From Klebsiella sp. RHBSTW-00484 (GTDB lineage Bacteria; Pseudomonadota; Gammaproteobacteria; Enterobacterales; Enterobacteriaceae): a DNA stretch of 64,000 nt. Made by a program: the position numbers and the translations under genes. The stretch spans positions 5,332,001 to 5,396,000 of the forward strand of contig NZ_CP055481.1 of the NCBI RefSeq assembly GCF_013705725.1, read 5' to 3'. This document shows positions 10,109 to 63,441 of the stretch, in pieces. Below the pieces are notes generated by a model. The model worked only from the letters and a program-made list of their open reading frames with translations, was not told the DNA's origin and did no database searches. The stretch's first letter is position 1; each line of letters starts with the position of its first letter.

Positions 10109-10127
10109 TTCGCAGCAGGAGGTCACA

Positions 10128-10640
10128 ATGCAATTAGATGAACAACGTCTGCGTTTTCGCGATGCCATGGCCAGCCTGTCGGCCGCGGTTAACGTCATCA
10201 CCACCGAAGGCGAAGCGGGTCGCTGCGGCATCACCGCCACCGCAGTCTGCTCGGTGACCGATACGCCGCCGTCGGTGATGGTCTGCATCAATGCCAATAG
10301 CGCGATGAATCCGGTGTTCCAGGGCAACGGTAAGCTGTGCATCAACGTACTCAACCACGAGCAAGAGGAAATGGCTCGCCACTTCGCCGGAATGACCGGT
10401 ATGACGATGGATGACCGCTTCGGCCTCTCCTGCTGGCAGAAAGGGACGCTGGGTCAGCCGGTTCTGAAAGGCTCACTGGCAAGTCTCGAAGGCGAGATTA
10501 GCCAGGTGCAGACCATCGGCAGTCATCTGGTTTATCTGGTGGAAATCCGCAATATTACCCTCTGCCAGCAGGGCCACGGGCTGATTTACTTCAAGCGCCG
10601 TTTCCATCCGGTAATGATGGAGATGGAAGTGGTGGCGTAG
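10128..10640 (+). CDS. hpaC: HpaC, NADH:flavin reductase component of HpaBC
   Basis: A 170-residue short-chain flavin reductase (split-barrel FMN-binding fold) supplying FADH2 to HpaB. Typical elements are AAVNVITTEG near the N-terminus, the GITATAVCSVTDTPPSVMVCI flavin-binding strand and loop region, and the C-terminal GLIYFKRRFHP. Preceded by GCAGGAGGT and co-transcribed with hpaB. An inverted repeat 38 bases downstream (10678-10708) probably ends the transcript. Confidence 0.95.
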   Translation: MQLDEQRLRFRDAMASLSAAVNVITTEGEAGRCGITATAVCSVTDTPPSVMVCINANSAMNPVFQGNGKLCINVLNHEQEEMARHFAGMTGMTMDDRFGLSCWQKGTLGQPVLKGSLASLEGEISQVQTIGSHLVYLVEIRNITLCQQGHGLIYFKRRFHPVMMEMEVVA

Positions 10641-10677
10641 GTTTACTCGCTACCAGGCGGGTAGCCTGATGATAAAC

Positions 10678-10708
10678 ATATTCCCGGAGGTGGTGCCCCC
10701 GGGAATAT
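10678..10708 (+). terminator. Inverted repeat after hpaC
   Basis: Perfect 10-base arms ATATTCCCGG / CCGGGAATAT separated by 11 bases. No long T-tract follows, so it is a stabilising or bidirectional hairpin rather than a textbook intrinsic terminator. It lies between convergent hpaC and the unknown gene that stops at 10732. Confidence 0.55.
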
Positions 10709-10731
10709 ATTGTGATTCGGCACTAAAGTTT

Positions 10732-11553
10732 TCAGTCAACTGCGCGACATGATGTCCAGTCAAAGCTCCCACCGCCGCGGAAATTTTGTTTGGTATAGTT
10801 CTCAGGCAGCGTTAAATGCCACCCTTTTTGTCCGGCGACGCAGGCAATGACGGGAAATTGAGAATAATCAATAGCATCATGAATAAATTGCTCTTTACCT
10901 ATATTTTGTAAAAAGGCATCCCCTCGATTCCATATCGCTTTTTTGAGCCTGATATTCCAGACTCGATAGCTCTCGCCAGCGATAGTATAACCCTCACCTT
11001 CAGGTGCCTTTTTTGTCCAGTCAATCTCGCCACCATCGGATAAATATTGCCATACCGCATAGCGCTCAAGAGTGAATTGACTGGGTAAGGTACTGACATT
11101 CTTAGAATCGATTTTATCGAGTAACTGTGGATTCGCTAACAGTAGCGCCATGGCTTTATGCATGTAGCCCAGCATAATGTCGGGGCGTTCGGGTACTCCC
11201 TCTTCTGCGTCAAACAAAGATATATAAGCGAGATAGCGTGCGTCATCACGCACCTTTTGACCATTTTCCGCCGCGCTGGCGACGATCTTCGCCGCCCTAT
11301 ATTGTAAACTTCCCCAGGATTCAGCTCCGCCAACGGGTCTGTAGCGATTATTGTACTTTTCACCCGTCAGGTAGCCTTGAGCTGCGTTTAAATCGTTAGC
11401 GTTTAACGCCGATACAGCGCGCTGATGGTCGGATAAGGTCATTACATTGCGCCCCGTATTTCTCGCCATATAATAAGACTGCTGGCATTCAGTAAGCATG
11501 ACGACCATCACGACCAGGGCAATAATCCTTAGAAAGGTTTTATATATCTTCAC
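10732..11553 (-). CDS. Unknown exported or membrane-anchored protein
   Basis: Not recognised. I place the start at a GTG (11551-11553) because AGGGG lies seven bases upstream and the reading then opens with a basic, hydrophobic leader (KIYKTFLRIIALVVMVVML) followed by TECQQ. This could be a signal peptide or a weak lipobox; Glu at -1 is unusual for lipid modification. The mature part (about 250 residues) has two C-terminal cysteines (FPVIACVAG and WTSCRAVD) that could form a disulphide in the periplasm. An upstream ATG at 11610 would add 19 residues overlapping the preceding gene. It lies 16 bases after that gene, so the two form an operon. AT-richer than hpa and btsT on either side, which suggests horizontal acquisition. 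Confidence 0.7.
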   Translation of the reverse strand: MKIYKTFLRIIALVVMVVMLTECQQSYYMARNTGRNVMTLSDHQRAVSALNANDLNAAQGYLTGEKYNNRYRPVGGAESWGSLQYRAAKIVASAAENGQKVRDDARYLAYISLFDAEEGVPERPDIMLGYMHKAMALLLANPQLLDKIDSKNVSTLPSQFTLERYAVWQYLSDGGEIDWTKKAPEGEGYTIAGESYRVWNIRLKKAIWNRGDAFLQNIGKEQFIHDAIDYSQFPVIACVAGQKGWHLTLPENYTKQNFRGGGSFDWTSCRAVD

Positions 11554-11569
11554 CGAGAAGCCCCTTATT

Positions 11570-12175
11570 TTATTTATAAATATATTGTTTGGAAACTTGT
11601 CTCGGTTCAATGTACAGCAAAACGGTTACCCGACCTTTTTTATAACTTCGTTGCCATTTGGAACAGTGAGTTATTTTATTCGTATCTAACCTTTTGTTAT
11701 ACCACTCTTGCTGTTTTGCAATACAGTCTGAAAGACTTTGATAGAATTTGTTTTTATCAGCAATATACTCTTCTTTAGTTATCGCCGGGCCATACTCTCG
11801 GTCAAGGACTTTCATTTCCTCATTGTATAAAGCCAGCGCCTCCTTGCCATCATCAACCTTATAGGCCTGCTGACTGGAATCAACATCAGCGCTAACAAAA
11901 ACACTTTTTAGCCCTTTATTCTTATCGAAATAAAGCTTCATCTCCTGATATTTCAGCGCCCCCACTTCCTGGGGAGTAAGCGTTGAGATAATCAGATCTG
12001 GGTCTTTTCCCGCATAATTGATATCTGATACCTCAAGAGAATATAAAGGCGTGTTTCTGGCCTCATCGTAACTCATCCCCCATCGCAGCTTATAAGGCGC
12101 TGGCGGCTCACCTGCTGCCTGAGTGAATGTTGCATAAAAAGCACTAACGATGATCATTATCTTTACAAATTTCAT
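11570..12175 (-). CDS. Unknown secreted protein with signal peptide
   Basis: Not recognised. 201 residues with a clear Sec signal peptide (basic MKFVKI, hydrophobic core, likely cut after TQAA). The mature protein begins with a YKLRWGMSYDEAR segment and ends rich in Lys and Tyr; it has two cysteines (SDCIAK and THCSKW) that may pair. It is first in a two-gene operon with the exported protein encoded at 10732-11553, and the pair sits as an AT-rich island between hpaC and the btsT control region. Immunity or effector-neutralising roles are conceivable but unsupported. Confidence 0.75.
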   Translation of the reverse strand: MKFVKIMIIVSAFYATFTQAAGEPPAPYKLRWGMSYDEARNTPLYSLEVSDINYAGKDPDLIISTLTPQEVGALKYQEMKLYFDKNKGLKSVFVSADVDSSQQAYKVDDGKEALALYNEEMKVLDREYGPAITKEEYIADKNKFYQSLSDCIAKQQEWYNKRLDTNKITHCSKWQRSYKKGRVTVLLYIEPRQVSKQYIYK

Positions 12176-12334
12176 TACCTGATTTCCCTATGATAAACGC
12201 TATCCATACCTACAGATTAAACGTCAGCATGATAGCAAAATCCCTGTGCGTGAAATAACACTATTGATTTTTGGCTGATAAAAAATATCATCCTCAACCT
12301 GTAAAGAAACGCTTTTCGTCAGGGAGAATAATAG

Positions 12335-12350
12335 CGTGATATTAATCACA
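12335..12350. promoter_or_regulatory. CRP-binding site upstream of btsT
   Basis: CGTGA-TATTAA-TCACA matches the CRP consensus TGTGA-N6-TCACA at nine of ten conserved positions. It sits about 200 bases before the btsT ATG and 27 bases before the BtsR boxes. CRP dependence of btsT (yjiY) is established in E. coli; the site here is by sequence match. Confidence 0.7.
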
Positions 12351-12377
12351 TATTTTTCTTCTCCGGCGCCATATCCA

Positions 12378-12425
12378 ACCGCTTACCCCGGCAAGTGACC
12401 GCTTAACCCTGCATACAACCACTCA
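12378..12425 (+). promoter_or_regulatory. Triple BtsR (YehT) box array upstream of btsT
   Basis: ACCGCTTA at 12378-12385, ACCGCTTA at 12398-12405 and ACCACTCA at 12418-12425 all fit the ACC(G/A)CT(C/T)A half-site reported for the LytTR-type regulator BtsR at the E. coli yjiY promoter. They repeat with an exact 20-base period, about two helical turns, on one face of the DNA. The published E. coli operator, as I recall it, is a pair of such boxes; the third, degenerate copy extends it towards the promoter. Confidence 0.72.
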
Positions 12426-12543
12426 CAGATTTACCCAACTTTACGCGCGCAAAGTTCTGGCAAGATCGTCCCCAGCATAGCGAATCAATACCTCCTCTAA
12501 ACGGCTTCGGCCCATTATTCATCTCAATAAGCCAGGTTTTACT

Positions 12544-14694
12544 ATGGATACTAAAAAGTTATTCAAGCACATACCCTGGGTGATTCTTGGAATCATCGGG
12601 GCATTTTGCCTCTCGGTTGTCGCCCTGCGTCGCGGTGAGCACGTCAGTGCGCTGTGGATCGTAGTGGCGTCGGTTTCCGTCTACCTTGTCGCCTACCGTT
12701 ATTACAGCCTGTACATCGCGCAAAAGGTAATGAAGCTCGACCCTACGCGCTCCACGCCTGCGGTGATTAACAATGATGGCCTGAACTATGTCCCGACCAA
12801 CCGTTACGTGCTGTTCGGCCACCACTTTGCCGCTATCGCCGGTGCCGGTCCGCTGGTGGGCCCGGTGCTCGCCGCGCAGATGGGCTACCTGCCGGGAACC
12901 CTCTGGCTGCTGGCGGGCGTGGTGCTGGCAGGGGCGGTGCAGGACTTTATGGTGCTGTTTATCTCCTCGCGCCGTAACGGTGCTTCGCTGGGTGAGATGA
13001 TCAAGCAAGAGATGGGGCCGGTTCCTGGCTCAATCGCGCTGTTCGGCTGCTTCCTGATTATGATCATCATCCTCGCGGTACTGGCGCTGATCGTAGTAAA
13101 AGCGCTGGCGGAAAGCCCATGGGGTGTATTCACCGTCTGCTCAACCGTACCGATCGCGCTGTTTATGGGGATCTACATGCGCTTCCTGCGTCCGGGACGC
13201 GTGGGGGAAATATCGGTTATCGGTATCGTCCTGCTGGTGGCTTCCATTTACTTCGGCGGCGTGATTGCCCACGACCCGTACTGGGGCCCGGCACTGACCT
13301 TTAAAGACACCACTATCACCTTTACCCTGATCGGCTACGCATTTATCTCCGCGCTGCTGCCGGTGTGGCTGATTCTGGCACCACGTGACTACCTCGCCAC
13401 CTTCCTTAAAATCGGCGTTATCGTCGGCCTGGCGCTGGGTATCGTTATCCTCAACCCGGATCTGAAAATGCCGGCAGTGACCCAGTACATTGATGGTACC
13501 GGTCCGCTGTGGAAAGGCGCGCTGTTCCCGTTCCTGTTTATCACCATCGCCTGCGGCGCGGTCTCAGGCTTCCACGCGCTGATCGCTTCCGGCACCACGC
13601 CGAAGCTGCTGGCTAACGAAACCGACGCCCGGTTTATCGGCTACGGCGCGATGCTGATGGAGTCCTTCGTGGCGGTAATGGCGCTGGTAGCGGCATCAAT
13701 TATCGAACCGGGCCTCTACTTTGCGATGAACACCCCGCCAGCAGGCCTTGGCATCACCATGCCGAACCTGCACGAAATGGGTGGTGAAAACGCCGCACTG
13801 ATTGCCGCACAACTCCGCGATGTGACCGCTCACGCAGCGGCGACCGTCAGCTCCTGGGGCTTTGTGATTTCACCTGAGCAGATCCTGCAAACGGCGAAAG
13901 ATATCGGCGAACCGTCGGTACTGAACCGCGCAGGCGGCGCGCCGACGCTGGCGGTTGGTATCGCTCACGTATTCCACAAAATCATGCCGATGGCGGATAT
14001 GGGCTTCTGGTACCACTTCGGTATTCTGTTTGAAGCGCTGTTTATCCTCACCGCGCTGGATGCCGGTACCCGTGCAGGCCGCTTTATGCTGCAGGATCTG
14101 CTGGGCAACTTCGTACCGTTCCTCAAGAAAACCGACTCACTGGTGGCGGGCATTATCGGCACCGCGGGCTGCGTCGGGCTGTGGGGCTACCTGCTGTATC
14201 AGGGCGTAGTTGACCCGCTGGGCGGCGTGAAGAGCCTGTGGCCGCTGTTCGGTATCTCTAACCAGATGCTGGCCGCCGTGGCGCTGGTGCTTGGCACCGT
14301 GGTGTTGGTCAAAATGCAGCGCACCAAATATATCTGGGTTACCGTGATCCCGGCCGCATGGCTGCTGCTGTGCACCACCTGGGCGCTGGGTCTGAAACTG
14401 TTCAGCACCAACCCGCAGATGGAAGGCTTCTTCTTTATGGCTCAACAGTATAAAGAGAAAATTGCTTCCGGCGGTGAACTGACCGCGCAGCAGATTGCTA
14501 ACATGAACCATATCGTGGTGAACAACTACACCAACGCAGGTCTGAGCATTCTGTTCCTGGTGGTGGTCTACAGCATCATCTTCTACGGCGTGAAAACCTG
14601 GCTCAACGTGCGCAATAATAAAGTGCGTACCGACAAAGAGACCCCGTACGTGCCGGTACCGGAAGGTGGCGTGAAGACCTCTTCACATCACTAA
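12544..14694 (+). CDS. btsT: BtsT, pyruvate:H+ symporter (CstA family)
   Basis: A 716-residue inner-membrane transporter of the CstA family, with many hydrophobic segments across its length and a short charged C-terminus. It closely matches E. coli BtsT (YjiY), the high-affinity pyruvate/proton symporter induced by the BtsS/BtsR two-component system under carbon limitation. The segments NRYVLFGHHFAAIAGAGPLVG and DAGTRAGRF are family hallmarks. Downstream yjiX (YbdD family) repeats the cstA-ybdD arrangement. A REP element at 14700-14781 lies between btsT and yjiX. Confidence 0.95.
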   Translation: MDTKKLFKHIPWVILGIIGAFCLSVVALRRGEHVSALWIVVASVSVYLVAYRYYSLYIAQKVMKLDPTRSTPAVINNDGLNYVPTNRYVLFGHHFAAIAGAGPLVGPVLAAQMGYLPGTLWLLAGVVLAGAVQDFMVLFISSRRNGASLGEMIKQEMGPVPGSIALFGCFLIMIIILAVLALIVVKALAESPWGVFTVCSTVPIALFMGIYMRFLRPGRVGEISVIGIVLLVASIYFGGVIAHDPYWGPALTFKDTTITFTLIGYAFISALLPVWLILAPRDYLATFLKIGVIVGLALGIVILNPDLKMPAVTQYIDGTGPLWKGALFPFLFITIACGAVSGFHALIASGTTPKLLANETDARFIGYGAMLMESFVAVMALVAASIIEPGLYFAMNTPPAGLGITMPNLHEMGGENAALIAAQLRDVTAHAAATVSSWGFVISPEQILQTAKDIGEPSVLNRAGGAPTLAVGIAHVFHKIMPMADMGFWYHFGILFEALFILTALDAGTRAGRFMLQDLLGNFVPFLKKTDSLVAGIIGTAGCVGLWGYLLYQGVVDPLGGVKSLWPLFGISNQMLAAVALVLGTVVLVKMQRTKYIWVTVIPAAWLLLCTTWALGLKLFSTNPQMEGFFFMAQQYKEKIASGGELTAQQIANMNHIVVNNYTNAGLSILFLVVVYSIIFYGVKTWLNVRNNKVRTDKETPYVPVPEGGVKTSSHH

Positions 14695-14699
14695 ACCTG

Positions 14700-14781
14700 A
14701 TGCCGGATAGCGTAACGCCTATCCGGCCTACAGAACGTGCATTAACGTAGGCCGGATAAGGCGCAAGCCGCCATCCGGCTT
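14700..14781. repeat. REP/BIME between btsT and yjiX
   Basis: Classic E. coli-type REP pair: TGCCGGATAGCG...CCTATCCGGCCTAC followed by GTAGGCCGGATAAGGCG...CCATCCGGC in opposite orientation. It is likely to protect the btsT message from 3' exonucleases and separate its expression from yjiX. Confidence 0.85.
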
Positions 14782-14802
14782 TATTCGTTACATGGGATCT
14801 AT

Positions 14803-15006
14803 ATGTTTGGTAACTTAGGTCAGGCTAAAAAGTACCTCGGTCAGGCGGCAAAAATGCTGATTGGCATTCCGGACTATGACAACTACGTTGCGCATATGCA
14901 GACCAACCATCCGGATAAACCGTACATGACCTACGAAGAATTCTTTCGCGAACGCCAGCAGGCCCGCTACGGCGGCGATGGCAAAGGCGGCGTACGCTGC
15001 TGTTAA
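14803..15006 (+). CDS. yjiX: YjiX, YbdD/YjiX-family small protein
   Basis: A 67-residue protein ([21 protein letters not shown] start) of the DUF466 YbdD/YjiX family, almost always encoded next to a CstA-type transporter. Conserved features are the [12 protein letters not shown] segment, the [17 protein letters not shown] segment and a terminal double Cys. Its role is not firmly known; co-occurrence suggests it assists the peptide or pyruvate transporter. It ends 11 bases before the yjiA start. Confidence 0.93.
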
Positions 15007-15017
15007 TGGAGGCAACA

Positions 15018-15974
15018 ATGGCACCGATTGCAGTTACCCTGCTGACCGGCTTTCTTGGCGCAGGCAAAACCACCCTGCTGCGCCATATTCTCAACGAAGA
15101 GCACGGTTTTAAAATCGCCGTTATCGAAAACGAATTTGGCGAAGTTGCCGTTGACGATCAGTTGATTGGCGATCGCGCAACGCAGATTAAAACCCTGACT
15201 AACGGCTGTATTTGCTGTACCCGCTCAAATGAACTGGAAGATACCCTGCTCGATCTGCTCGACAGTCGCGATCGCGGGGAAACCGATTTTGACCGTCTGG
15301 TGATTGAGTGCACTGGCATGGCCGACCCCGGCCCGATTATTCAGACCTTTTTCTCCCACGATGTGCTGTGCGAACGCTATCTGCTGGATGGGGTGATTGC
15401 GCTGGTTGACGCGGTGCATGCCGATCAGCAGATGAATCAGTTCACCATCGCCCAGTCGCAGGTGGGCTATGCCGATCGCATCCTGCTCACCAAAACTGAC
15501 GTGGCAGGCGACAGCGACAAGCTCCGCGAACGGCTGACGCGCATTAACGCCCGCGCGCCCATTTACACCGTGACTCACGGCGACATCGACCTGAATCTGC
15601 TGTTTAACACCAGCGGTTTTATGCTGGAAGAGAACGTGGTCAGCAGCAAACCGCGCTTCCACTTTATGGCCGACAAGCAAAACGATGTTTCGTCGATTGT
15701 GGTGGAGCTGGATTACCCGGTGGATATCAGCGAAGTGTCGCGAGTGATGGAAAATCTGTTGCTCGACTTTGCCGAACAGTTGATGCGCTACAAAGGGATG
15801 CTGTGGATTGATGGCGAACCAAACCGCCTGCTGTTTCAGGGCGTCCAGCGGCTATATAGCGCCGACTGGGACCGTCCGTGGGGCGATGAGCCGCCGCACA
15901 GTACGCTGGTATTTATCGGTATCAATCTGCCGGAAAAGCAAATTCGTACAGCGTTTGCAGGATTGCGCAAATAA
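15018..15974 (+). CDS. yjiA: YjiA, COG0523-family P-loop GTPase
   Basis: A 318-residue G3E-class GTPase. The P-loop GFLGAGKTTLL opens the protein; the COG0523 metal-site motif appears as GCICC, the Walker B-like segment as VIECTGMADP, and TKTD gives base specificity. E. coli YjiA binds Zn and GTP. I chose ATG at 15018, which follows GGAGG by five bases and gives the E. coli length, over an ATG twelve bases earlier that overlaps the yjiX stop. Confidence 0.94.
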   Translation: MAPIAVTLLTGFLGAGKTTLLRHILNEEHGFKIAVIENEFGEVAVDDQLIGDRATQIKTLTNGCICCTRSNELEDTLLDLLDSRDRGETDFDRLVIECTGMADPGPIIQTFFSHDVLCERYLLDGVIALVDAVHADQQMNQFTIAQSQVGYADRILLTKTDVAGDSDKLRERLTRINARAPIYTVTHGDIDLNLLFNTSGFMLEENVVSSKPRFHFMADKQNDVSSIVVELDYPVDISEVSRVMENLLLDFAEQLMRYKGMLWIDGEPNRLLFQGVQRLYSADWDRPWGDEPPHSTLVFIGINLPEKQIRTAFAGLRK

Positions 15975-53257: not shown

Positions 53258-53536
53258 ATGGGTGATGCATTAGGGCTTATCGAAACCAAAGGTCTGGTGG
53301 CCTGTATTGCCGCAGCGGATGCCATGTGCAAATCCGCCAACGTCGAGCTGATTAGCTATGAAAACATCGGCTCCGGTCTGGTCACCGTGATGGTGAAGGG
53401 CGACGTCGGCGCGGTGAAAGCAGCAATAGATTCCGGTGTGGAATCCGCGCAGCGCATAGGGGAAGTGGTGACGTCGCTGGTGATTGCGCGTCCACATAAC
53501 GACATCAACAAAATTGTCATTAAACACAGGGCTTAA
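53258..53536 (+). CDS. cmcA: BMC-H microcompartment shell protein 1
   Basis: 92 residues, one BMC domain ([21 protein letters not shown]; pore loop [16 protein letters not shown]). Hexamers tile the facets of the choline-utilisation microcompartment. First of three tandem near-identical copies. Differs from the next two at several positions, for example Ala for Glu after VACI and Ile in the pore loop. The name follows the E. coli 536 cmcABC scheme by position. Confidence 0.93.
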
Positions 53537-53552
53537 GGCCAGGAGAACGCAA

Positions 53553-53837
53553 ATGGGTGATGCATTAGGTTTGATTGAAACCAAAGGCCTGGTGGCCTGC
53601 ATTGAAGCGGCAGATGCGATGTGCAAAGCCGCCAACGTTGAGCTGATTGGCTATGAAAACGTCGGTTCCGGCCTCGTCACCGCGATGGTGAAAGGCGACG
53701 TCGGCGCGGTGAAAGCGGCGGTCGATTCCGGCGTGGAATCAGCGCAGCGCATCGGCGAAGTGGTGACCTCACTGGTTATCGCCCGCCCGCATAACGACAT
53801 CAACAAAATCGTCTCGCATTACAAAATGGCCGAATAA
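53553..53837 (+). CDS. cmcB: BMC-H microcompartment shell protein 2
   Basis: 94 residues, start [12 protein letters not shown] with AGGAG upstream; a longer in-frame reading into the previous gene is not the start. One BMC domain with pore loop ENVGSGLV. Ends KMAE. About 90 percent identical to its neighbours, so these are recent duplicates or kept alike by gene conversion. Confidence 0.93.
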
Positions 53838-53851
53838 CCGGAGAAAACCTG

Positions 53852-54130
53852 ATGAAAGAAGCACTAGGGCTTATCGAAACCAAAGGTCTGGTGGCCTGTA
53901 TCGAAGCGGCAGATGCGATGTGCAAAGCCGCCAACGTCGAGCTGATTGGCTATGAAAACGTCGGTTCTGGCCTCGTCACCGCGATGGTGAAAGGCGACGT
54001 CGGCGCGGTAAATGCCGCCGTGGACTCCGGCGTGGAAGCGGCGAAACGCATTGGCGAAGTCGTCACCTCTCGCGTCATCGCGCGACCGCATAACGATATC
54101 GAAAAAATCGCGTCGCAGCACAAAGCATGA
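53852..54130 (+). CDS. cmcC: BMC-H microcompartment shell protein 3
   Basis: 92 residues, start [12 protein letters not shown]. Same BMC domain and pore loop as the second copy; differs chiefly at the outer helix ([14 protein letters not shown]) and C-terminus ([10 protein letters not shown]), surfaces that contact other shell tiles or cargo. Fourteen bases after copy 2; 53 bases before the aldehyde dehydrogenase start. Confidence 0.93.
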
Positions 54131-54183
54131 CCTGACAGGGCGCGCCCCGTCTCCACTCTTTTAGTCTGATGAAGGATAGACTC

Positions 54184-55791
54184 ATGATTGAACTGGATAA
54201 CGATTTGCAGTCCCGGCAAAACGCCCGGGAGCTGGTGCGCAATGCCAAAAAGGCGCAGGCGATTCTGGCCACCTTTTCGCAGCAGCAAATCGACGCCATC
54301 GTGAAGAACGTGGCCCAGGAAGCGGCGCATCATGCCGAAGCGCTGGCGAAAATGGCCGCGGAAGAGACCGGTTTTGGCAACTGGCAGGACAAAGTGCTGA
54401 AGAACCGCTTCGCCTCGCTGCGCGTTTACGACGCAATCAAAGATATGAAGACCGTCGGCATCATTCATGACGATCAAGTGCAAAAGGTGATGGACGTGGG
54501 CGTGCCGCTGGGGGTGATTTGTGCGCTTGTGCCGTCCACCAACCCGACATCCACTGTTATCTACAAAACGCTGATTGCCCTGAAAGCCGGTAACGCCATT
54601 ATCTTCTCGCCGCATCCGGGCGCACGCCAGTGCAGCTGGAAAGCGATTGAGATTGTTAAACGCGCCGCCGAAGCGGCGGGCGCTCCGGCAGGCAGCGTCG
54701 ACGCTATTAGTCAGCTGACCCTCGAAGCCACTTCAGAACTGATGCACAGCAAAGACGTGTCGCTGATTCTGGCCACCGGCGGTGAAGGCATGGTGCGCGC
54801 GGCTTACGCCTCTGGCACCCCAACCATCAGCGGCGGTCCGGGTAACGGCCCGGCGTTTATCGAACGCAGTGCTGATATTCACCATGCGGTGAAAGATATC
54901 ATCACCAGCAAAACCTTCGATAACGGCGTGATCTGCGCCTCCGAGCAGTCAATCATCGTCGAACGCTGCATTTACGACGACGTTCACCGCGAGCTGGAAG
55001 CCCAGGGCGCGTACTTTATGAACGAAAGCGAAGCGGCGAAAATGGCGGCCCTGCTGCTACGTCCGAACGGCGCGATCAACCCGAAAACGGTTGGCAAAAC
55101 CGCGCTGTATCTGAGCCAGATGGCCGGATTCTGCGTTCCGGCCAGCACCCGCGTGCTGATTGCCGAGCAGACCACGGTATCGCACTCCAACCCCTACTCG
55201 CGGGAAAAACTGTGCCCGGTCCTCGGCCTGTACGTGGAAGAAGACTGGAAAGCGGCCTGTCACCGCGTGGTGGAATTACTGACCAACGAAGGCCTCGGCC
55301 ACACGCTGGTGATCCACACCCGCAACCAGGACGTTATCCGCCAGTTCTGCCTCGAAAAACCGGTTAACCGCATCCTGATTAACACCCCGGCGGCCCTCGG
55401 CGGTATCGGCGCGACCACCAATATTACTCCGGCCCTGACTCTGGGCTGCGGCGCGGTAGGCGGCGGTTCCAGCTCCGACAACGTCGGACCGATGAATCTG
55501 CTCAACATCCGCAAAGTGGGCTACGGCGTGCGCTCCATTGATGAACTGCGCGCCCCGAGCAGCCGCCCGGAACCGCAGCCCACCATCGTCAACCCAACGG
55601 ATAACCCGAACCGCAGCATCTTTGATGACGATCGCTTTAACTCCCCGGCAGCAGCAGCGCCAGTGGCTCACGCTACCAGCAGCGCGGATGACCGTTTTGC
55701 TACCGCAGCGACCGCTGGCGCAGACAGCGAGATCAACGAGCAAAACGTGGAGCGCGTCATTCGCCAGGTGCTGGAACGCCTTGGCAAGTAA
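54184..55791 (+). CDS. cutF: CutF, CoA-acylating acetaldehyde dehydrogenase of the microcompartment
   Basis: 535 residues of the EutE/PduP-type family. The nucleophile is Cys251 in NGVICASEQS; no ALDH Glu base is needed for CoA chemistry. A Pro/Ser/Ala-rich linker (about residues 460-510) leads to a C-terminal amphipathic helix, NEQNVERVIRQVLERLGK, with the look of an encapsulation peptide. Converts acetaldehyde from choline cleavage into acetyl-CoA and NADH. Start ATG 54184 has AAGGA seven bases upstream; ATG 54169 would overlap that site. Confidence 0.93.
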   Translation: MIELDNDLQSRQNARELVRNAKKAQAILATFSQQQIDAIVKNVAQEAAHHAEALAKMAAEETGFGNWQDKVLKNRFASLRVYDAIKDMKTVGIIHDDQVQKVMDVGVPLGVICALVPSTNPTSTVIYKTLIALKAGNAIIFSPHPGARQCSWKAIEIVKRAAEAAGAPAGSVDAISQLTLEATSELMHSKDVSLILATGGEGMVRAAYASGTPTISGGPGNGPAFIERSADIHHAVKDIITSKTFDNGVICASEQSIIVERCIYDDVHRELEAQGAYFMNESEAAKMAALLLRPNGAINPKTVGKTALYLSQMAGFCVPASTRVLIAEQTTVSHSNPYSREKLCPVLGLYVEEDWKAACHRVVELLTNEGLGHTLVIHTRNQDVIRQFCLEKPVNRILINTPAALGGIGATTNITPALTLGCGAVGGGSSSDNVGPMNLLNIRKVGYGVRSIDELRAPSSRPEPQPTIVNPTDNPNRSIFDDDRFNSPAAAAPVAHATSSADDRFATAATAGADSEINEQNVERVIRQVLERLGK

Positions 55792-55817: not shown

Positions 55818-56075
55818 ATGATTCTCGCAAAGGTAGTTGGACATGTCGTCGCCACGCAGAAGTGCGATGAGCTACGCGGAAGCAACCTGCTGCTGATCAG
55901 CAAATTAGATGATGACCAGCAGCCGATGAAAGACCAGACCTGGGTTGCCGTTGATAGCGTCGGTGCCGGTATGCACGACATCGTGCTGGCGGAAGAGTAT
56001 CTGGCGCTCAACAAAGACCGCTACAAGGCCATGTCGGTGGTTGCCATTGTCGAGAACGTGTTTCGGGACGCTTAA
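55818..56075 (+). CDS. cmcD: BMV (EutN/CcmL) pentameric vertex protein
   Basis: 85 residues, starting MILAKVVGHVVATQK, with the VAVDSVGAGMHDIVLAEE segment typical of EutN/CcmL. Pentamers close the corners of the shell. Twenty-six bases after cutF. Confidence 0.92.
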   Translation: MILAKVVGHVVATQKCDELRGSNLLLISKLDDDQQPMKDQTWVAVDSVGAGMHDIVLAEEYLALNKDRYKAMSVVAIVENVFRDA

Positions 56076-56089
56076 GGAGTCAATAGCCA

Positions 56090-57232
56090 ATGAGTGAATT
56101 TTTGCTGAAACCGCGGATCCGCTTTGGTCAGGACGCGCTTTCCATCCTGAACGAGCTGCCCGCCCGCAACGTGCTGCTGGTTACCGACCAGGCGATGGTC
56201 AAATTTGGCCTCGCCGATCGCGTCACGCAGATCTTGCGCTCACGCGGCATCGCCTCCCAGATCTGGGGCGACGTGGTCGCCGACCCGGATATCGCCACCG
56301 TGGTGCGCGGGATGAAGCGGATGGATAACAGCTATCCGGATCTGGTTATCGCACTGGGCGGCGGTTCGGTGATTGATGCAGCCAAAGCGGTTATTTTCGC
56401 CCTGGCGCAAACCCGTCCGGACGCTCACCGCGAGCCGCCTTGCTTCGTGGCGATCCCCACCACCAGCGGCACCGGTTCGGAAGTCACCGCCTTTTCGGTA
56501 GTGAAGGCCCACGCCGAGAAGCTGGTGCTGGTGGACCCGTCGTTGCTGCCGGATATCGCTATTCTCGACCCGGCGCTGGTGGCCTCTGTGCCGCCCGCAA
56601 TCACCGCCGATACCGGAATGGACGTGCTGTGCCATGCGCTGGAGGCCTATGTCTCCCGCGCCGCCAGTGACTTTTCCGATGCGCTGGCTGAAAAGGTGGT
56701 GCAGCAGGTGTTTCGCTACCTGCCGACCTGCTGGCGCAACGGTCACGATCTGCTGGCACGAGAAAAAATGCACAACGCCTCCTGCATGGCGGGCATGGCT
56801 TTCACCAACGCGTCACTCGGCATCACCCACAGCCTGGCCCACGCGCTCGGCGGTGTTTTCCGCGTACCGCATGGCCGTGCCAACGCGTTGCTGATGGCGG
56901 AAGTGGTGGCCTGGAATGCGGATTATCAAGGGCTGTGCGATACCGATGCCGCCCGCAAATACGCCCGATTAGCCCATCTGCTGGACCTGCCTGTGGCCAC
57001 GACCCGCCAGGGCGTCACCAGCCTGCTGGTCGCCATTCAGGCGCTAAAAGACGAAATGACCATGCCGGTCGGCATTGGTGATACCGGTGTTGATGCGGCT
57101 GATTTTGACCGTCGTCTGGCAGAGATGGTCGGCCAGGCGCTGCGCGACAGCTGTACGCCGACGAACCCACGCGCGCCGGACGCTCACGCACTTACCGAAC
57201 TCTATCGCCGGGCGTGGACCGGTAACGCCTGA
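56090..57232 (+). CDS. cutO: CutO, iron-type alcohol dehydrogenase of the microcompartment
   Basis: 380 residues of the group III (Fe-dependent) alcohol dehydrogenase family. NAD-binding [13 protein letters not shown]; metal ligands in the segments [12 protein letters not shown] and HSLAHALGG and the downstream VPHGRANA. It reduces acetaldehyde to ethanol, recycling NADH made by CutF inside the shell. Starts 14 bases after the BMV gene. Confidence 0.92.
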
Positions 57233-57257: not shown

Positions 57258-60200
57258 ATGGCACACTACAGCTTAACGCCGCGCGTCAAAGTGTTGGCAG
57301 AACGTTTACTCTCACAAAAAAGCACCCTGTGCACCGAACATGCCACCACGCTGAGCGCCCTTGATGGCGATATCGCGGGCATTCCCGCCGCCGTCAAACC
57401 CGCGCGCCGTTTCTATGAGCTGATGCGCCAATTGCCGCTGTGCATCAGCGCCGACGAACTGATCGTCGGCAACCAGACCCGTAAGCCGCACGGGGCGATT
57501 TTCCACGACGAAAGCGCCGCCCAGCGCCCTTCGGCATTCCAGTTCCTTAATCTTAGCAACGACCTGGATTCACCCGACTACAAACTGGTGGTCGAAAAAG
57601 GCGTGCTGGCGATTAAACACCAACTGGAAGAGAAAACCCGCGCGCTGGGCAGCGCGGTCAGCCGCAGCGGCATGGACGAAGTCAACGGCTGTCGTGCAGC
57701 GATTTACGCCTGCGACGCGCTGATGGCGCTGGCGCAAAACCTGGCCAATAGCGCCGAAACGCTCGCTGCCAGCGAAACCAACGCTTACCGCAAGGCGGAG
57801 TTGTTAGAGAGCGCAGCTATTCTGCACCACGTTCCGGCTCACCCGGCGCGCAGTTTCAAAGAAGCCTGCCAGGCGTTCTACCTGTTCCAACTGGCGCTCC
57901 AGTTGGACAACGGCAGCTACGCGGTCAACCCGGAAGGGGCCGACAAAGCCCTGCTGCCTTACTACCAGCACGATATCAACAGCGGTGCGCTGTCTCAGCA
58001 GCAGGCGTATGAAATCGTCGAGTCTTTGTGGTTCAAATTGGCTGAACTGAGTGAAGTCCGCGCCGCCAGCGCCATCGACGGTTATCCGATGTTTGATGCC
58101 CTACTCCACGGCGCGAGCCTTGAGAATGCGCGCATCAACGAACTCTCCGATATGTTCCTCAGCGCGCAGCACAACCTGAGCGCCCTACATCTGCCGGTGC
58201 GTCTGTTCAGCGGCGCGAAGCCCGTTTGTGCCGCGCCGTTTGCCGCCTGTAGCGAAACGCCAGCGGCAGAAGGTTTAACCCCGCGTATGCAGCGTCTGCG
58301 CAACCACTACCTGACCGTACGGCCGAGCGTTTCTATTTACCGCGCGCTGGCCTTTACCGAAGTGGTGAAAGCCAACCCAGGGATGCCAACCATTCTGCTG
58401 CGCGCCAAAGCGTTCCGTCACGCCTGCGAAACCGCGCCAATTCTGATTCAGGACGACGAGCTGATCGTCGGCCATCCATGCGGCAAGCCGCGTGCAGGCG
58501 CGTTCTCGCCGGATATCGCCTGGCGCTGGGTACGCGACGAGCTCGACACCATGAGCACCCGTCCACAGGATCCGTTTGAAATCAGCGAAGCCGACAAAAA
58601 GACCATCCGCGAAGAGATCGTGCCGTTCTGGGAAGGCCGTTCGCTGGATGAGATCTGTGAAGCACAGTACCGTGAAGCGGGCGTGTGGTCATTTAGCGGC
58701 GAAACCTTCGTCAGCGACCTCTCCTATCACCAGATCAACGGCGGCGGCGACACCTGCCCGGGCTACGACGTGCTGCTGTTCACCAAAGGGATGAACGGCA
58801 TTAAAGCCGATGCCGAGGCGCATCTCGCCAGCCTTAGCATGGAAAACCCGGAAGATATCGACCGCATTTACTACTACAAAGCGGCGATTGAAACCTGTGA
58901 AGGGGTGGTGAGCTACGCGCACCGCATCGCCGCGCGCGCCCGCGAACTGGCAGCCGTAGAGCAGAACGCCCAGCGTCGCGCCGAACTGCTGACCATCGCC
59001 GAAGTGAACCAGAACGTCCCGGCTAATCCGCCGAAAACCTTGCAGGAAGCGCTGCAAAGTATCTGGACCGTGGAATCGCTGTTTGAAATTGAAGAGAACC
59101 AGACCGGCCTGTCGCTGGGTCGCGTTGACCAGTACTGCTACCCAATGTTTGAAGCCGATATTCGCGAAGGCCGCCTGACCCACGACAGCGCGCTGGAGAT
59201 GATGCAGGCATTTATCATCAAATGTGCCGAACTGATGTGGATGTCCAGCGAGCTGGGCGCGAAATACTTCGCCGGATATCAGCCGTTTATCAACCTGACC
59301 GTTGGCGGCCAGAAGCGTTCCGGCGGTGATGCCTGTAACGACCTGACCTACCTGATTATGGACGCCGTGCGCTTTGTGAAAGTTTACCAGCCGTCGCTGG
59401 CCTGCCGTATTCACAACCAGTCGCCGCAGAAGTACATGGAAAAAATCGTCGATGTGGTGAAAGCGGGCATGGGTTTCCCGGCCTGTCACTTCGATGACTC
59501 GCATATCAAGATGATGCTGCGCAAAGGCTTCGATTTTGAAGACGCGCGCGACTACTGCCTGATGGGCTGCGTCGAGCCGCAAAAATCCGGCCGCATCTAC
59601 CAGTGGACTTCTACCGGTTATACCCAGTGGCCGATTGCCATCGAGTTCGTCTTAAACCGTGGTCGCATGGTGTTGTTTGATAGCTATCAGGGGCTGGATA
59701 CCGGCGACCTGCGTGACCTGCACACTTTCGAAGAGTTCGATGCGGCAGTGAAAAAGCAGATTGCCCATATTGTTCGCCTGTCAGCTATCGGTACGGTTAT
59801 CAGCCAACGCGTACACCGCGACGTGGCACCGAAGCCGCTGATGTCGCTGCTGGTGGAAGGCTGTATGGAGCAAGGTAAAGACGTCGCCGCCGGTGGCGCG
59901 ATGGTCAACCACGGGCCGGGGCTGATCTTCTCCGGGCTAGCAACTTATGTCGACTCCCTCGCCGCGATCCGCAAGCTGGTGTATGAAGATAAAAAATACA
60001 CCCTTGAGCAGATGCGCGATGCGATGCTGGCCAACTTCGAAGGCTTTGAAGGCCTGCGCCGCGACTGCCTGAACGCGCCGAAATACGGTAACGATGATAA
60101 CTACGTTGACCAGTACGCACTGGATATCACCGAGTGGACCGAGCGCGAGTGCCGCAAGTACCAGATGCTCTACTCGACCCTGAGCCACGGCACCCTGTCT

Positions 60201-60644
60201 ATTTCCAACAACACGCCAATCGGTGAGCTGACCAACGCCACGCCGAACGGGCGTCTGGCGTGGATGCCGCTTTCTGACGGCATCAGCCCAACCCAGGGCG
60301 CAGATAAACAAGGCCCGACCGCCATCATCAAGTCGGTAAGCAAGATGAACGTGGAGACCATGAACATCGGCATGGTACACAACTTCAAGTTCCTCAAAGG
60401 CTTGCTGGATACCCCGGAAGGACGCCACGGCCTGATTACGCTGCTGCGCACCGCGTCGATTCTTGGCAACGGCCAGATGCAGTTCAGCTATGTCGATAAT
60501 GAAGTGCTGAAAAAAGCGCAGCAGGAGCCGGAAAAATACCGCGACCTGATCGTCCGCGTGGCGGGCTATAGCGCCTACTTCGTCGAACTGTGCAAAGAAG
60601 TTCAGGACGAAATCATCAGCCGTACGGTGATTGAGAAGTTCTGA
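57258..60644 (+). CDS. cutC: CutC, choline trimethylamine-lyase (type II, 1128 residues)
   Basis: Glycyl radical enzyme that cleaves choline to trimethylamine and acetaldehyde. Catalytic residues are Cys771 and Glu773 in GCVEP and Gly1103 in RVAGYSAYF; the choline-site GGDTCPGYD is present. At 1128 residues it is the long (type II) form of Klebsiella and E. coli, with about 335 extra N-terminal residues. That extension is itself similar to the core: [15 protein letters not shown] (residue 66) mirrors [16 protein letters not shown] (about 400), and [17 protein letters not shown] (about 181) mirrors [17 protein letters not shown] (about 576). I start at ATG 57258 ([11 protein letters not shown]); the longer open reading overlaps cutO and is not used. 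Likely encapsulated. Confidence 0.96.
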
Positions 60645-60701
60645 TAAAAAACACGGACGTATTTGGACAAGGATGTCCCGATCGTATTTCTGGAGGTAAA
60701 T

Positions 60702-61649
60702 GTGAGCGCAAAACAAGAATTAACCGGGCGAATTTTCAATATTCAGAAATATTCGATTTATGACGGTGATGGAATTCGCACGCTGGTTTTTTTTAAAGGC
60801 TGCAATATACGCTGCCCGTGGTGCGCCAACCCGGAAGGGCTGAATAGCCAGTTTCAGGTGATGTTTTCGCAGGATAAATGCATTAACTGCGGCGATTGCG
60901 TCAACGTCTGCCCGGTGGGTATTCATTATCGGGCGGAAGAAAATGGCGAAATGAAGCACTTCGTCAACCGCAATAAAGATTGCATCGGCTGTCGCAAGTG
61001 CGAAGAAATTTGCACCCAGAGCGCGCTGGATATTATGGGCAAAGATGTCACCGTCAGCGAGCTGATGGAAATCATCATGCAGGATTATGATTTTTATATC
61101 GCTTCCGGCGGTGGCGTCACCATCGGCGGCGGCGAGATGAGCCTGCAAACCGATTTTGCCGTCGCGCTATTTAGCGAATGCAAAAAGATGATGCTCAATA
61201 CCGCTGTTGAAACCCAGGGTACAACCCCGCTGGCTAATTATCAAAAGCTGGCGCCGGTAACCGATACCTTCCTGTTCGATATTAAGCAAATTAATAGCGA
61301 GCACCATAAAGCCTTATTTGGCATTGGCAACGAAGGGATTCGCCGCAATCTGGAATGGCTGGTTGATTCGGGCGCTAACGTGATTGTGCGGATGCCGCTG
61401 GTGCGCGGTTATAACGACTCATGGGAGGCCATTACCGGGGCCATTGATTATGTGCAGAAACTGGCGAAGCGCGGCAATATTCGCCGCATCGACATGCTGC
61501 CGTACCACCAACTAGGGCGTAAGAAATATGAGCGACTGGAGATGCCCTACCCCATTACCCAGGACCCGACTTATTCCGCCGAAGAGTTGAACCGGCTGGA
61601 AACGTTCTTCACGCAGTTTGATTTTGACATTCGCTTAGTTCGTCACTAA
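60702..61649 (+). CDS. cutD: CutD, glycyl-radical activating enzyme (radical SAM)
   Basis: 315 residues. The radical-SAM cysteines are in GCNIRCPWC; an inserted ferredoxin-like domain has two Cys sets (CINCGDCVNVCP, CIGCRKCEEIC). GGGEMSLQ is the SAM-binding GGE segment. It installs the radical on CutC Gly1103. Starts at GTG 60702, five bases after GGAGG, matching known CutD; the reading upstream of it is not used. Confidence 0.95.
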   Translation: MSAKQELTGRIFNIQKYSIYDGDGIRTLVFFKGCNIRCPWCANPEGLNSQFQVMFSQDKCINCGDCVNVCPVGIHYRAEENGEMKHFVNRNKDCIGCRKCEEICTQSALDIMGKDVTVSELMEIIMQDYDFYIASGGGVTIGGGEMSLQTDFAVALFSECKKMMLNTAVETQGTTPLANYQKLAPVTDTFLFDIKQINSEHHKALFGIGNEGIRRNLEWLVDSGANVIVRMPLVRGYNDSWEAITGAIDYVQKLAKRGNIRRIDMLPYHQLGRKKYERLEMPYPITQDPTYSAEELNRLETFFTQFDFDIRLVRH

Positions 61650-61660
61650 AGGAGCCGATA

Positions 61661-62125
61661 ATGAAAAGTTTAGGCGTCATTGAAACGCGAGGGTTAGTCG
61701 CCGCCATACAAGCCGTGGACGCCGCCTGTAAAAGCGCAGGCGTGACCTGCATCGGCTACCGCAAAGTCGGTTCGGGGCTGGTGAGCGTCTGCTTTGAAGG
61801 GGAAATCAGCGCGATTCACACCGCCATCGAGCGCGGCATGGTTGTCGCCACTGCTATCGATCCGCAGGCCCGCTCTCTGGTGATCGCTCGCCCTGAGCGC
61901 TGCGTGGTCGAAGCCCTGAGCAGTTTAAAAGGCCACCCGCCGCGCGCTGAGGCCAAAGTCGACGCACCGGTTGAAATTAAAGATGAAGTCGGAGCTGAAG
62001 CCGACGAGCCGCTCCCGGCGGAAAAAAAGGACGCGGAAGAACCCGTCGCCCCGCCCACAGCGCAGCCCGCACCGGTCCCGTCGGAAGATAAAAACCCGGC
62101 GATGAGGAAAGGGAAGAAGGCATGA
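61661..62125 (+). CDS. cmcE: BMC shell protein with C-terminal extension
   Basis: 154 residues: a divergent BMC domain (MKSLGVIETRGLVAAIQAVD; pore loop KVGSGLVS) followed from about residue 95 by a low-complexity tail rich in Ala, Glu, Pro and Lys. Such tails are thought to link cargo or other shell parts. The stop overlaps the start of the next gene (ATGA). The symbol follows E. coli 536 by position. Confidence 0.9.
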   Translation: MKSLGVIETRGLVAAIQAVDAACKSAGVTCIGYRKVGSGLVSVCFEGEISAIHTAIERGMVVATAIDPQARSLVIARPERCVVEALSSLKGHPPRAEAKVDAPVEIKDEVGAEADEPLPAEKKDAEEPVAPPTAQPAPVPSEDKNPAMRKGKKA

Positions 62126-62742
62126 TCGATACTCTGCTACATGAAAAAATCGCCGCCCGCCTGAGCCATGTTTCTCCGGCTATCCCGGTCGGCATCTCTA
62201 ACCGCCACGTGCATCTGGCGCAGCAGGACGTCGAAGCTCTGTTCGGTAAGGGTTATGCCCTGACGCCGTTTAAGCCGCTGCGCCAACCGGGGCAGTTCGC
62301 CGCCCAGGAGTGCGTCACCGTGGTTGGTCCGAAAGGCTCACTGACTAACGTTCGCGTGCTCGGCCCGACGCGCCCGGTTTCGCAGCTGGAAATCTCCCGT
62401 GCCGACTGCTTTACCCTCGGCGTCAAGGCGCCGGTTCGCGAATCGGGTCAACTAGAGAACGCGGGCAGCGCATTGCTGATAGGCCCGGCAGGCCACGTCG
62501 AACTGCACTCTCAGGTGATCTGCGCCTGGCGGCATATTCATATGTCACCGCAGGACGCCCGCCAGTTGAATGTCGCTAACGGTCAAAAGGTCAGCGTGCG
62601 CAGCGACGGCGAGCGCCAGCTGACTTTCGATGAAGTGGTAGTGCGGGTGCGCGAAGACTTTGCGCTGGAGTTTCATATTGATACCGAAGAGGCCAACGCC
62701 GCCGGATTGAAAAACGGCGCGCAGGTCACGCTCATCGGTTAA
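62122..62742 (+). CDS. cutH: CutH, PduL-type phosphotransacylase
   Basis: 206 residues of the PduL family. Zinc-site histidines in VGISNRHVHLA and ICAWRHIHMSP are in the two repeated beta-barrel halves. It converts acetyl-CoA to acetyl phosphate, regenerating CoA inside the shell and feeding ATP formation. A short N-terminal helix (IDTLLHEKIAARL) may be an encapsulation signal. Confidence 0.92.
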   Translation: MIDTLLHEKIAARLSHVSPAIPVGISNRHVHLAQQDVEALFGKGYALTPFKPLRQPGQFAAQECVTVVGPKGSLTNVRVLGPTRPVSQLEISRADCFTLGVKAPVRESGQLENAGSALLIGPAGHVELHSQVICAWRHIHMSPQDARQLNVANGQKVSVRSDGERQLTFDEVVVRVREDFALEFHIDTEEANAAGLKNGAQVTLIG

Positions 62743-62754
62743 CGGAGGCCCGCC

Positions 62755-63441
62755 ATGACTGACCAACAGATTGAATGCCTGGTTGAACGCATACTCCAAC
62801 GCCTGAAACCGCCGGTACTGGTAATGGTGGCCGCCGCAACGGGATATCGGCATGCCATTAGTCAGCGGCTGGCGAGCTGCGGCGAAAGTCTGCATCTGGC
62901 GCTGGATAGCGGGATTGAAGACGGTGAGCAGTGGCAGGCTCTGGGTAAAACGCTGCCTGCGGCCGACTGGCAAGATACGCTGCCTTCGGTCCCGTACAAA
63001 GCGCTGCTGCTGCCGTTTCTCGATTATCCGCTGGCAGCAGATCTGGTGAATGGCTCCCTGCACAGCCCGCTTGCCCGGCGCGTGCATGATGCCCTGCTAA
63101 GCGGCCTGCCGGTGCTGGCGCTGCGCTACCATTGCGACCCCGCCAGCGAACTGAACCAGCTACTGGGCGCGCAGCCGAACTCTGCTTACGCCGGGCATAT
63201 GCAGGCCACGCTTGCCCGCCTGGCGGACTGCGGCGTCACGCTGTGTACCATGAATGAGCTGCTGGAAAGACTGGCGTCAGGTAGCGAAGCAGCGCCGGTA
63301 CTGACGAGTACCATGCGGCGTTATCTCACTGTCACAGACGTGGTGAATAATCCAGCGCTGGCTTCAACACCGCAAGCACAGCTGACCGATGCCGCGATCG
63401 ATTTTTTAAAAAACAGAAAAAAAGAACCTTACCTTAAATAG
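62755..63441 (+). CDS. Uncharacterised microcompartment-associated protein (PduM/flavoprotein-like)
   Basis: 228 residues. An N-terminal amphipathic helix (QQIECLVERILQRLKPP) resembles an encapsulation peptide. The middle has a possible Rossmann-like strand pattern (VLVMVAAATGY and ALLLPFLDYPLAADLV), and the C-terminus ends in a basic helix. This combination recalls PduM-type or flavoprotein-like accessory proteins of glycyl-radical microcompartments, but no decisive motif is visible. Twelve bases after cutH, so part of the operon. Confidence 0.72.
   Translation: MTDQQIECLVERILQRLKPPVLVMVAAATGYRHAISQRLASCGESLHLALDSGIEDGEQWQALGKTLPAADWQDTLPSVPYKALLLPFLDYPLAADLVNGSLHSPLARRVHDALLSGLPVLALRYHCDPASELNQLLGAQPNSAYAGHMQATLARLADCGVTLCTMNELLERLASGSEAAPVLTSTMRRYLTVTDVVNNPALASTPQAQLTDAAIDFLKNRKKEPYLK

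Follow-up and report, generated by a model that had tools for sequence, protein, structure and literature searches.

A likely captured half-enzyme as putative docking domain in the choline lyase CutC of type II cut clusters

The choline trimethylamine-lyase CutC of type II cut clusters begins with an extension of about 340 residues that precedes its catalytic part. We studied this extension in Klebsiella sp. RHBSTW-00484, in a stretch of 64,000 nt on contig NZ_CP055481.1 (positions 5,332,001-5,396,000, forward strand), which is called the window here and to which plain coordinates refer. The extension is very probably of foreign origin, and it is likely to represent a single capture, by gene fusion, of half of a glycyl radical enzyme (GRE) of the dehydratase type. 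Our explanation as a whole, which we consider moderately likely, is that the extension is a catalytically dead docking domain, fused in once, for the tail of the aldehyde dehydrogenase CutF, in which a short motif, DxRF, is repeated.

The homology of the extension is already published, in passages of two papers that are cited here for those passages. They describe the CutC extension of the K. pneumoniae type II cluster (GRE-associated microcompartment 2, GRM2), the same domain as that of the window. It was found to show some homology to the 340 residues that follow it, probably through an N-terminal duplication (Kalnins 2020, PMC6971018), and to resemble the N-terminus of GRM1 enzymes (Ferlez 2019, PMC6325248), whereas we find a grouping with dehydratase-type enzymes and DxRF motifs in CutF. 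The catalytic part was encapsulated without the extension, CutF recruitment and cross-linking required it, and addition of CutF gave larger aggregates with full-length but not with truncated CutC; the Discussion of the same paper holds that metabolosomes have no specific additional adaptor proteins (Kalnins 2020, PMC6971018). What is new here is the contradiction of the published origin and a testable partner motif in CutF. The string DDRF is not in the main text of Kalnins 2020, and no proposal of a foreign origin or of a DxRF partner motif was found in the titles and opening abstract lines of the papers listed by literature searches, from whose coverage subscription papers are mostly absent.

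Extent of the extension and its missing parts

CutC has 1128 residues and an ATG start at 57258 (57258-60644, + strand). Its parts are as follows.

57258..58217, + strand: N-terminal extension (residues 1-320), the likely front half of a dehydratase-type GRE, without catalytic loops
57504..57572, + strand: site of an internal deletion (residues 83-105), from BLASTP and alignment
58035..58061, + strand: KLAELSEVR (residues 260-268), with candidate docking residues S265/E266, from conservation
58218..58277, + strand: linker (residues 321-340), predicted disordered
58278..60641, + strand: catalytic choline trimethylamine-lyase part
59568..59570, + strand: codon of the catalytic Cys771, in the GCVE motif
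60564..60566, + strand: codon of the glycyl-radical Gly1103, in the RVAGYS motif

Residues 1-340 alone give a Pfam match to the pyruvate formate-lyase (PFL)-like family at E 1.9e-50 (172.6 bits, against a curated cut-off of 24.3). Compared by BLASTP with residues 341-1128, they align in two collinear blocks, the larger joining residues 106-303 to positions 161-363 of the catalytic part (78 bits, E 7e-20, 29% over 204 columns) and the smaller joining residues 7-82 to positions 1-76 (35 bits, E 4e-6). An earlier reading of this DNA, made from the letters without database searches (the sequence-only reading), had proposed that the N-terminal third of CutC is homologous to its GRE catalytic part and collinear with it. 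Both points are borne out, with the match beginning near residue 7 and not, as that reading had it, near residue 60.

The blocks are separated by 23 residues in the extension (83-105) and by 84 (417-500) in the catalytic part, which leaves the extension about 60 short on balance. The YHQINGGGD loop sits inside 417-500, opposite the deletion; we take it to be the choline-binding loop, with Y208 and D216 in Desulfovibrio numbering. The extension stops before the catalytic Cys and Gly, C771 and G1103, as the sequence-only reading had also noted. No counterpart of the catalytic Cys loop is seen in the alignment of the extension, and a search of residues 1-340 for the glycine radical domain PF01228, admitting E values up to 1, found nothing.

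The extension evolves fast, diverging 2.3 to 6 times as much as the catalytic part, and is under purifying selection, as judged from the ratio of nonsynonymous to synonymous substitution rates (dN/dS; 15 pairs, 13 computable). Purifying selection rules out neutral decay, and the earlier description of the extension as decayed is misleading. S265 and E266, in KLAELSEVR, are conserved at 98% in extensions, and at 7% and 4% in the other GREs compared; this pattern makes them candidate docking residues.

Residues 1-320 are predicted to form a folded domain with the fold of the N-terminal half of GREs, and residues 321-340, between this domain and the catalytic part, are predicted to be disordered (predicted local distance difference test, pLDDT, about 35). 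The predicted fold is related to the PFL-like fold, as the sequence-only reading would have it, and diol and glycerol dehydratases head the fold-search rows for the model. The extension is probably not an encapsulation peptide (EP). The EPs of metabolosome enzymes likewise recruit cargo, but they are short amphipathic helices on a flexible linker, whereas the extension is predicted to be a folded domain of about 320 residues. In phmmer, the whole extension matches the full-length sequence deposited as PDB 9f3w, and the entries 9f3w/x/y contain the full CutC sequence. The extension is not in 9f3x_C, the sole chain of these entries listed by the fold search (791 residues, aligned over 338-818), and literature searches listed no paper on the entries.

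Origin of the extension

In a single-sequence search of the PDB with the extension, diol dehydratase 5i2a scored 128.6 bits and CutC chains without an extension 81-87. A profile of ten extensions gave 253 bits with 5i2a, 227 with glycerol dehydratase and at best 174 with extension-less CutC chains. Of the solved structures, diol and glycerol dehydratases (PDB 5i2a, 1r8w, 9rco) are among those closest to the extension profile; relative to them, the Cys and Gly loops are missing from the extension, as is a net of about 60 internal residues. Among fetched full-size enzymes without an extension, the profile scored highest, at 365 bits, with a free-standing enzyme of 808 residues from a metagenome-assembled genome (MAG) of Geobacteraceae (L074:9977-12400, the Geobacteraceae enzyme below); the next best of them scored 288 bits, and seven extension-less CutCs scored 168-178.

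Trees were built from 220 pooled enzymes, of which 185 passed a length and coverage filter and 59 were left at 65% identity (two of these were omitted from the first tree). The three trees drew 15, 10 and 4 extensions, respectively, from 64 full-length proteins and L073. The Clostridia searches covered 291 genomes drawn from a larger group, and a PF02901 scan of 299 genomes of the phylum, which returned mainly PFL-like enzymes, was used only through the extension-less CutC of one genome (G522; L156).

In the first tree (87 rows), the 15 extensions and the Geobacteraceae enzyme form one clade (support 100/99) and 18 CutC catalytic halves form another. Forcing extensions and CutC together costs 51 log-likelihood units (approximately unbiased (AU) test, p 0.0004). 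The second tree, with denser sampling (86 rows, 12 rows excluded), gives the same result, and its 10 extensions, the Geobacteraceae enzyme and 14 further enzymes form a set of 25 (99/93). The extensions are sister to the Geobacteraceae enzyme in two of the three trees. In the third, from which six extensions and that enzyme were omitted, the four clostridial extensions join the same 14 enzymes with modest support (88/71), and the union of extension and CutC is again rejected (AU p 0.00014). For three of the 14 companion enzymes (L126, L127, L078), the best PDB match is a diol or glycerol dehydratase. Dehydratase-like wording that is absent from CutC is found in the aligned clostridial extensions, with CTERA and DELIVGNQ in three of three and FPE(F/S)S in two of three. 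In a MAFFT alignment of 12 chosen rows, the clostridial extensions P0064 and L073 have 48-51% identity to the Geobacteraceae enzyme and 28-32% to the two CutCs compared; for the window's own extension the values are 34% and 25-26%.

The fusion of a foreign half is favoured over a self-duplication of CutC because the trees group the extensions with dehydratase-type GREs and reject a common clade with CutC. Under self-duplication, CutC would have copied its own N-terminal half, and the copy would have diverged fast once catalysis was lost. This was the origin proposed as probable in Kalnins 2020 (PMC6971018), it agrees with the 29% identity to the enzyme's own catalytic part, and the rapid divergence of the extension could blur the signal. 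It is nevertheless very unlikely in view of both AU tests, by which the extension is not sister to the CutC catalytic clade, and of the higher identity to the Geobacteraceae enzyme than to CutC. The sequence-only reading had likewise called the extension a copy of CutC's own domain, which the profile scores and the rejected clade contradict.

The donor side is represented by one enzyme so far. Its neighbourhood (9977-15306) encodes a Phenol_MetA outer-membrane protein, an AmiS/UreI transporter and an activase, and the PF00936 shell domain was not found in the MAG, which is possibly incomplete. To judge from the transporter, this GRE may act on a small compound of the amide or urea kind.

DxRF motifs in the CutF tail

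Docking of DxRF motifs on the extension is, from the distribution of the motif in sequences, close to an even call, leaning in favour. In the window, the motif occurs twice in CutF.

54169..55788, + strand: CutF aldehyde dehydrogenase, with a C-terminal tail
55615..55638, + strand: first DxRF motif of the tail, SIFDDDRF
55681..55698, + strand: second DxRF motif, SADDRF
55735..55788, + strand: EP-like C-terminal stretch of CutF, also called EP-like in Kalnins 2020 (PMC6971018)

The tail reads SIFDDDRF ... SADDRF ... NEQNVERVIRQVLERLGK (55615-55788), and it is reached by none of the best 60 of 130 PDB matches for CutF. The motif was counted at 59 extension-bearing loci, 58 of them with a CutF in reach; the Endozoicomonas locus (L067) has none. 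Every one of the 58 tails has at least one copy and 57 have at least two (126 copies in total), and S and I each precede the first copy in 54. Most gammaproteobacteria examined have two copies per chain, an E. coli locus again pairs an extension-bearing CutC with a CutF that carries two, and four clostridial tails, among them those of the close relatives L070 and L071, have four or five. In shuffled tails, two copies are found in 0.005 of 60 on average.

Elsewhere at the extension loci, no copy was found in the scanned open reading frames (ORFs) of CutC, CutD, CutO, BMC-H, BMC-P, the transporter or TetR; there are eight copies among 56 CutH (none with two) and one among 55 ORF63k. Loci without an extension supplied 28 distinct CutF-like control tails (29 entries), including two from a type I choline cluster (G1085), and none has the motif. 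It is also absent from two further CutF-like enzymes of the type I choline cluster of Enterococcus raffinosus. For two of the controls without DxRF (L226 in G001, L221 in G009), the same genome encodes a CutC with an extension at a different locus. L256 was dropped from the comparison for its cut frame; L220 is the same as L070, L222 repeats one L215 frame, and the 60 and 29 entries thus correspond to 59 and 28 distinct ones. Single copies in unrelated ORFs number three in L215, two in L213 and one in a short L214 frame.

In Endozoicomonas, DxRF is found on a separate ORF directly upstream of the extension-bearing CutC (L067:9468-9926, possible GTG start at 9510). It has four copies, and its single-sequence fold has a pLDDT of 56.5 with one predicted C-terminal helix. 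The ORF may encode a dedicated adaptor protein. The CutCs of Kistimonas and Parendozoicomonas, relatives of Endozoicomonas, and of a third genome (G1008) have no extension; at the N-terminus they bear one SIF(D/N)D(Q/P)RF motif together with a helix-like stretch. In this Kistimonas-type CutC, the docking pair may have been replaced by direct attachment; equally, the motif may have another partner.

The rest of the cluster in the window, including its bacterial microcompartment (BMC) shell genes, is as follows.

53258..54130, + strand: three single-domain BMC-H shell genes
55818..56072, + strand: BMC-P shell gene (EutN/CcmL)
56090..57229, + strand: CutO alcohol dehydrogenase, named from its place in the published GRM2 locus
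60699..61646, + strand: CutD activating enzyme (radical SAM)
61661..62122, + strand: fourth BMC-H shell gene; its product has a long C-terminal tail
62122..62739, + strand: CutH phosphotransacylase (PTAC)

A CutC of about 1130 residues with an extension of about 340, single-domain BMC-H (four single PF00936 matches), BMC-P and no BMC-T in the locus place the cluster in type II (GRM2). A gene of 228 residues in the cluster (62755-63441) has no Pfam match and is present in most extension loci scanned. A second CutC-like enzyme that keeps GCVE (L015:16952-19435, L067:15031-17613, L212) is 62-63% identical to CutC, with 68-72% identity among its own members; in Klebsiella spallanzanii and Endozoicomonas it lies next to the cut cluster, in G1008 on a separate contig, and it possibly serves a different quaternary amine. 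CutC frames are split in Clostridium (L071:3703-7166) and Kluyvera (L023) records. Among 5426 complete E. coli genomes, cutC is matched in 322 (321 over at least 80%), at 321 chromosomal places and one on a plasmid.

Proposed docking role and alternatives

DxRF is read as a ligand because the extension recruits CutF (Kalnins 2020, PMC6971018) and co-occurs with DxRF motifs. In the proposed mechanism, the extension on CutC would be the receptor and the DxRF motifs, on CutF or in one case on a separate ORF, the ligands. A CutC dimer would present two receptors and a CutF tetramer several ligand tails; dimers and tetramers would cross-link into the network of the enzymatic core, and the end of the CutF tail would stay free to meet the shell. 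A wider scheme, tentative and a little short of an even call, has the metabolosome evolving a scaffold of its own: the captured dead dehydratase half would be the receptor, and the ligands that hold the core together would be tandem DxRF motifs, carried by CutF or, in Endozoicomonas, by a free-standing sticker protein, with Kistimonas-type CutC placing both sticker and EP helix on itself.

The sequence-only reading had suggested assembly, encapsulation or interaction with CutD as roles of the extension. The first agrees with its reported requirement for CutF recruitment and cross-linking, and the second is excluded by the encapsulation of CutC without it (Kalnins 2020, PMC6971018). A need for it in the contact with CutD is unlikely, since an extension-less cluster described below, the one examined, retains CutD.

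In an order-level draw of 394 genomes, the catalytic part was matched at E up to 1e-250 in seven, at eight places, four in frames of 1136-1194 residues and four in frames of 819-879. On a tree of the catalytic part (83 rows), presence or absence of the extension needs seven changes, which alone cannot separate gain from loss, the tree being a quick one with some long rows and with support from the Shimodaira-Hasegawa-like approximate likelihood ratio test (SH-aLRT) only. One extension-less group is nested inside extension-bearing Enterobacterales rows. In a genus that is probably Pectobacterium (that of G522, labelled from an N-terminal segment identical to P0167, named Pectobacterium carotovorum), CutC is present in 10 of 25 genomes at 86-87% identity, in all 10 in frames of 841-879 residues without the extension; PF00936 is unmatched in 8 of them. 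The cluster examined (L213, with L216 upstream) has CutC and CutD together with a transporter pair and a remote match to alcohol dehydrogenase (124 bits); neither CutF nor any shell protein of the window is matched there. Across its genome, CutF has a single match at E up to 1e-60, to a frame of 902 residues that we read, from its length, as AdhE. In this genus the extension is gone where the compartment and CutF are gone, and CutD stays.

Some findings weigh against the docking explanation. A strict rule is opposed by the other two of the 10 genomes, which have one BMC locus elsewhere, and by several extension-less CutCs, of type I and of the Kistimonas type, that lie in or near BMC loci. In addition, Kistimonas-type CutC has one DxRF without any extension. 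This last point favours another reading, possible but doubtful, in which the EP-like end of CutF binds the extension, and DxRF serves the shell or some other partner. EP helices are known to coalesce cargo. By eye, however, an EP-like end is also seen in many of the control tails that lack DxRF, so that it does not track the extension, whereas DxRF does.

An extra dimerisation surface, by which the extension would pair with another extension or with the catalytic domain and chain CutCs together, is unlikely. It was raised in Ferlez 2019 (PMC6325248), which points out that many GREs dimerise via N-terminal residues, and, as an internal pseudo-dimer, in the sequence-only reading; the front-half fold is predicted to be kept. 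The shift of full-length CutC to larger aggregates, however, came with CutF (Kalnins 2020, PMC6971018). Protection of the radical enzyme, for instance from oxygen, or its activation, for instance through CutD, is extremely unlikely; oxygen stability and activation are named as options in Ferlez 2019 (PMC6325248). Neither is favoured as the function of the extension, given that the extension-less cluster retains CutD.

The docking explanation has a likeness, in outline, to the carboxysome scaffolds CcmM, with its small-subunit (SSU)-like domains, and CsoS2, in that a dead enzyme-like module or short repeats would gather cargo by multivalent contacts. The proteins are unrelated, and in the cut system the signature enzyme carries the dead module as a fusion, its partner enzyme the repeats. 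A foreign origin would correct the published guess that the extension arose by N-terminal duplication. Should the docking explanation hold, a captured half-enzyme would serve the type II choline compartment as its adaptor, and the ligand on the partner would be a short motif that is readily mutated; assembly of the core would then be directly testable, and the motif would provide a portable tag for cargo loading.
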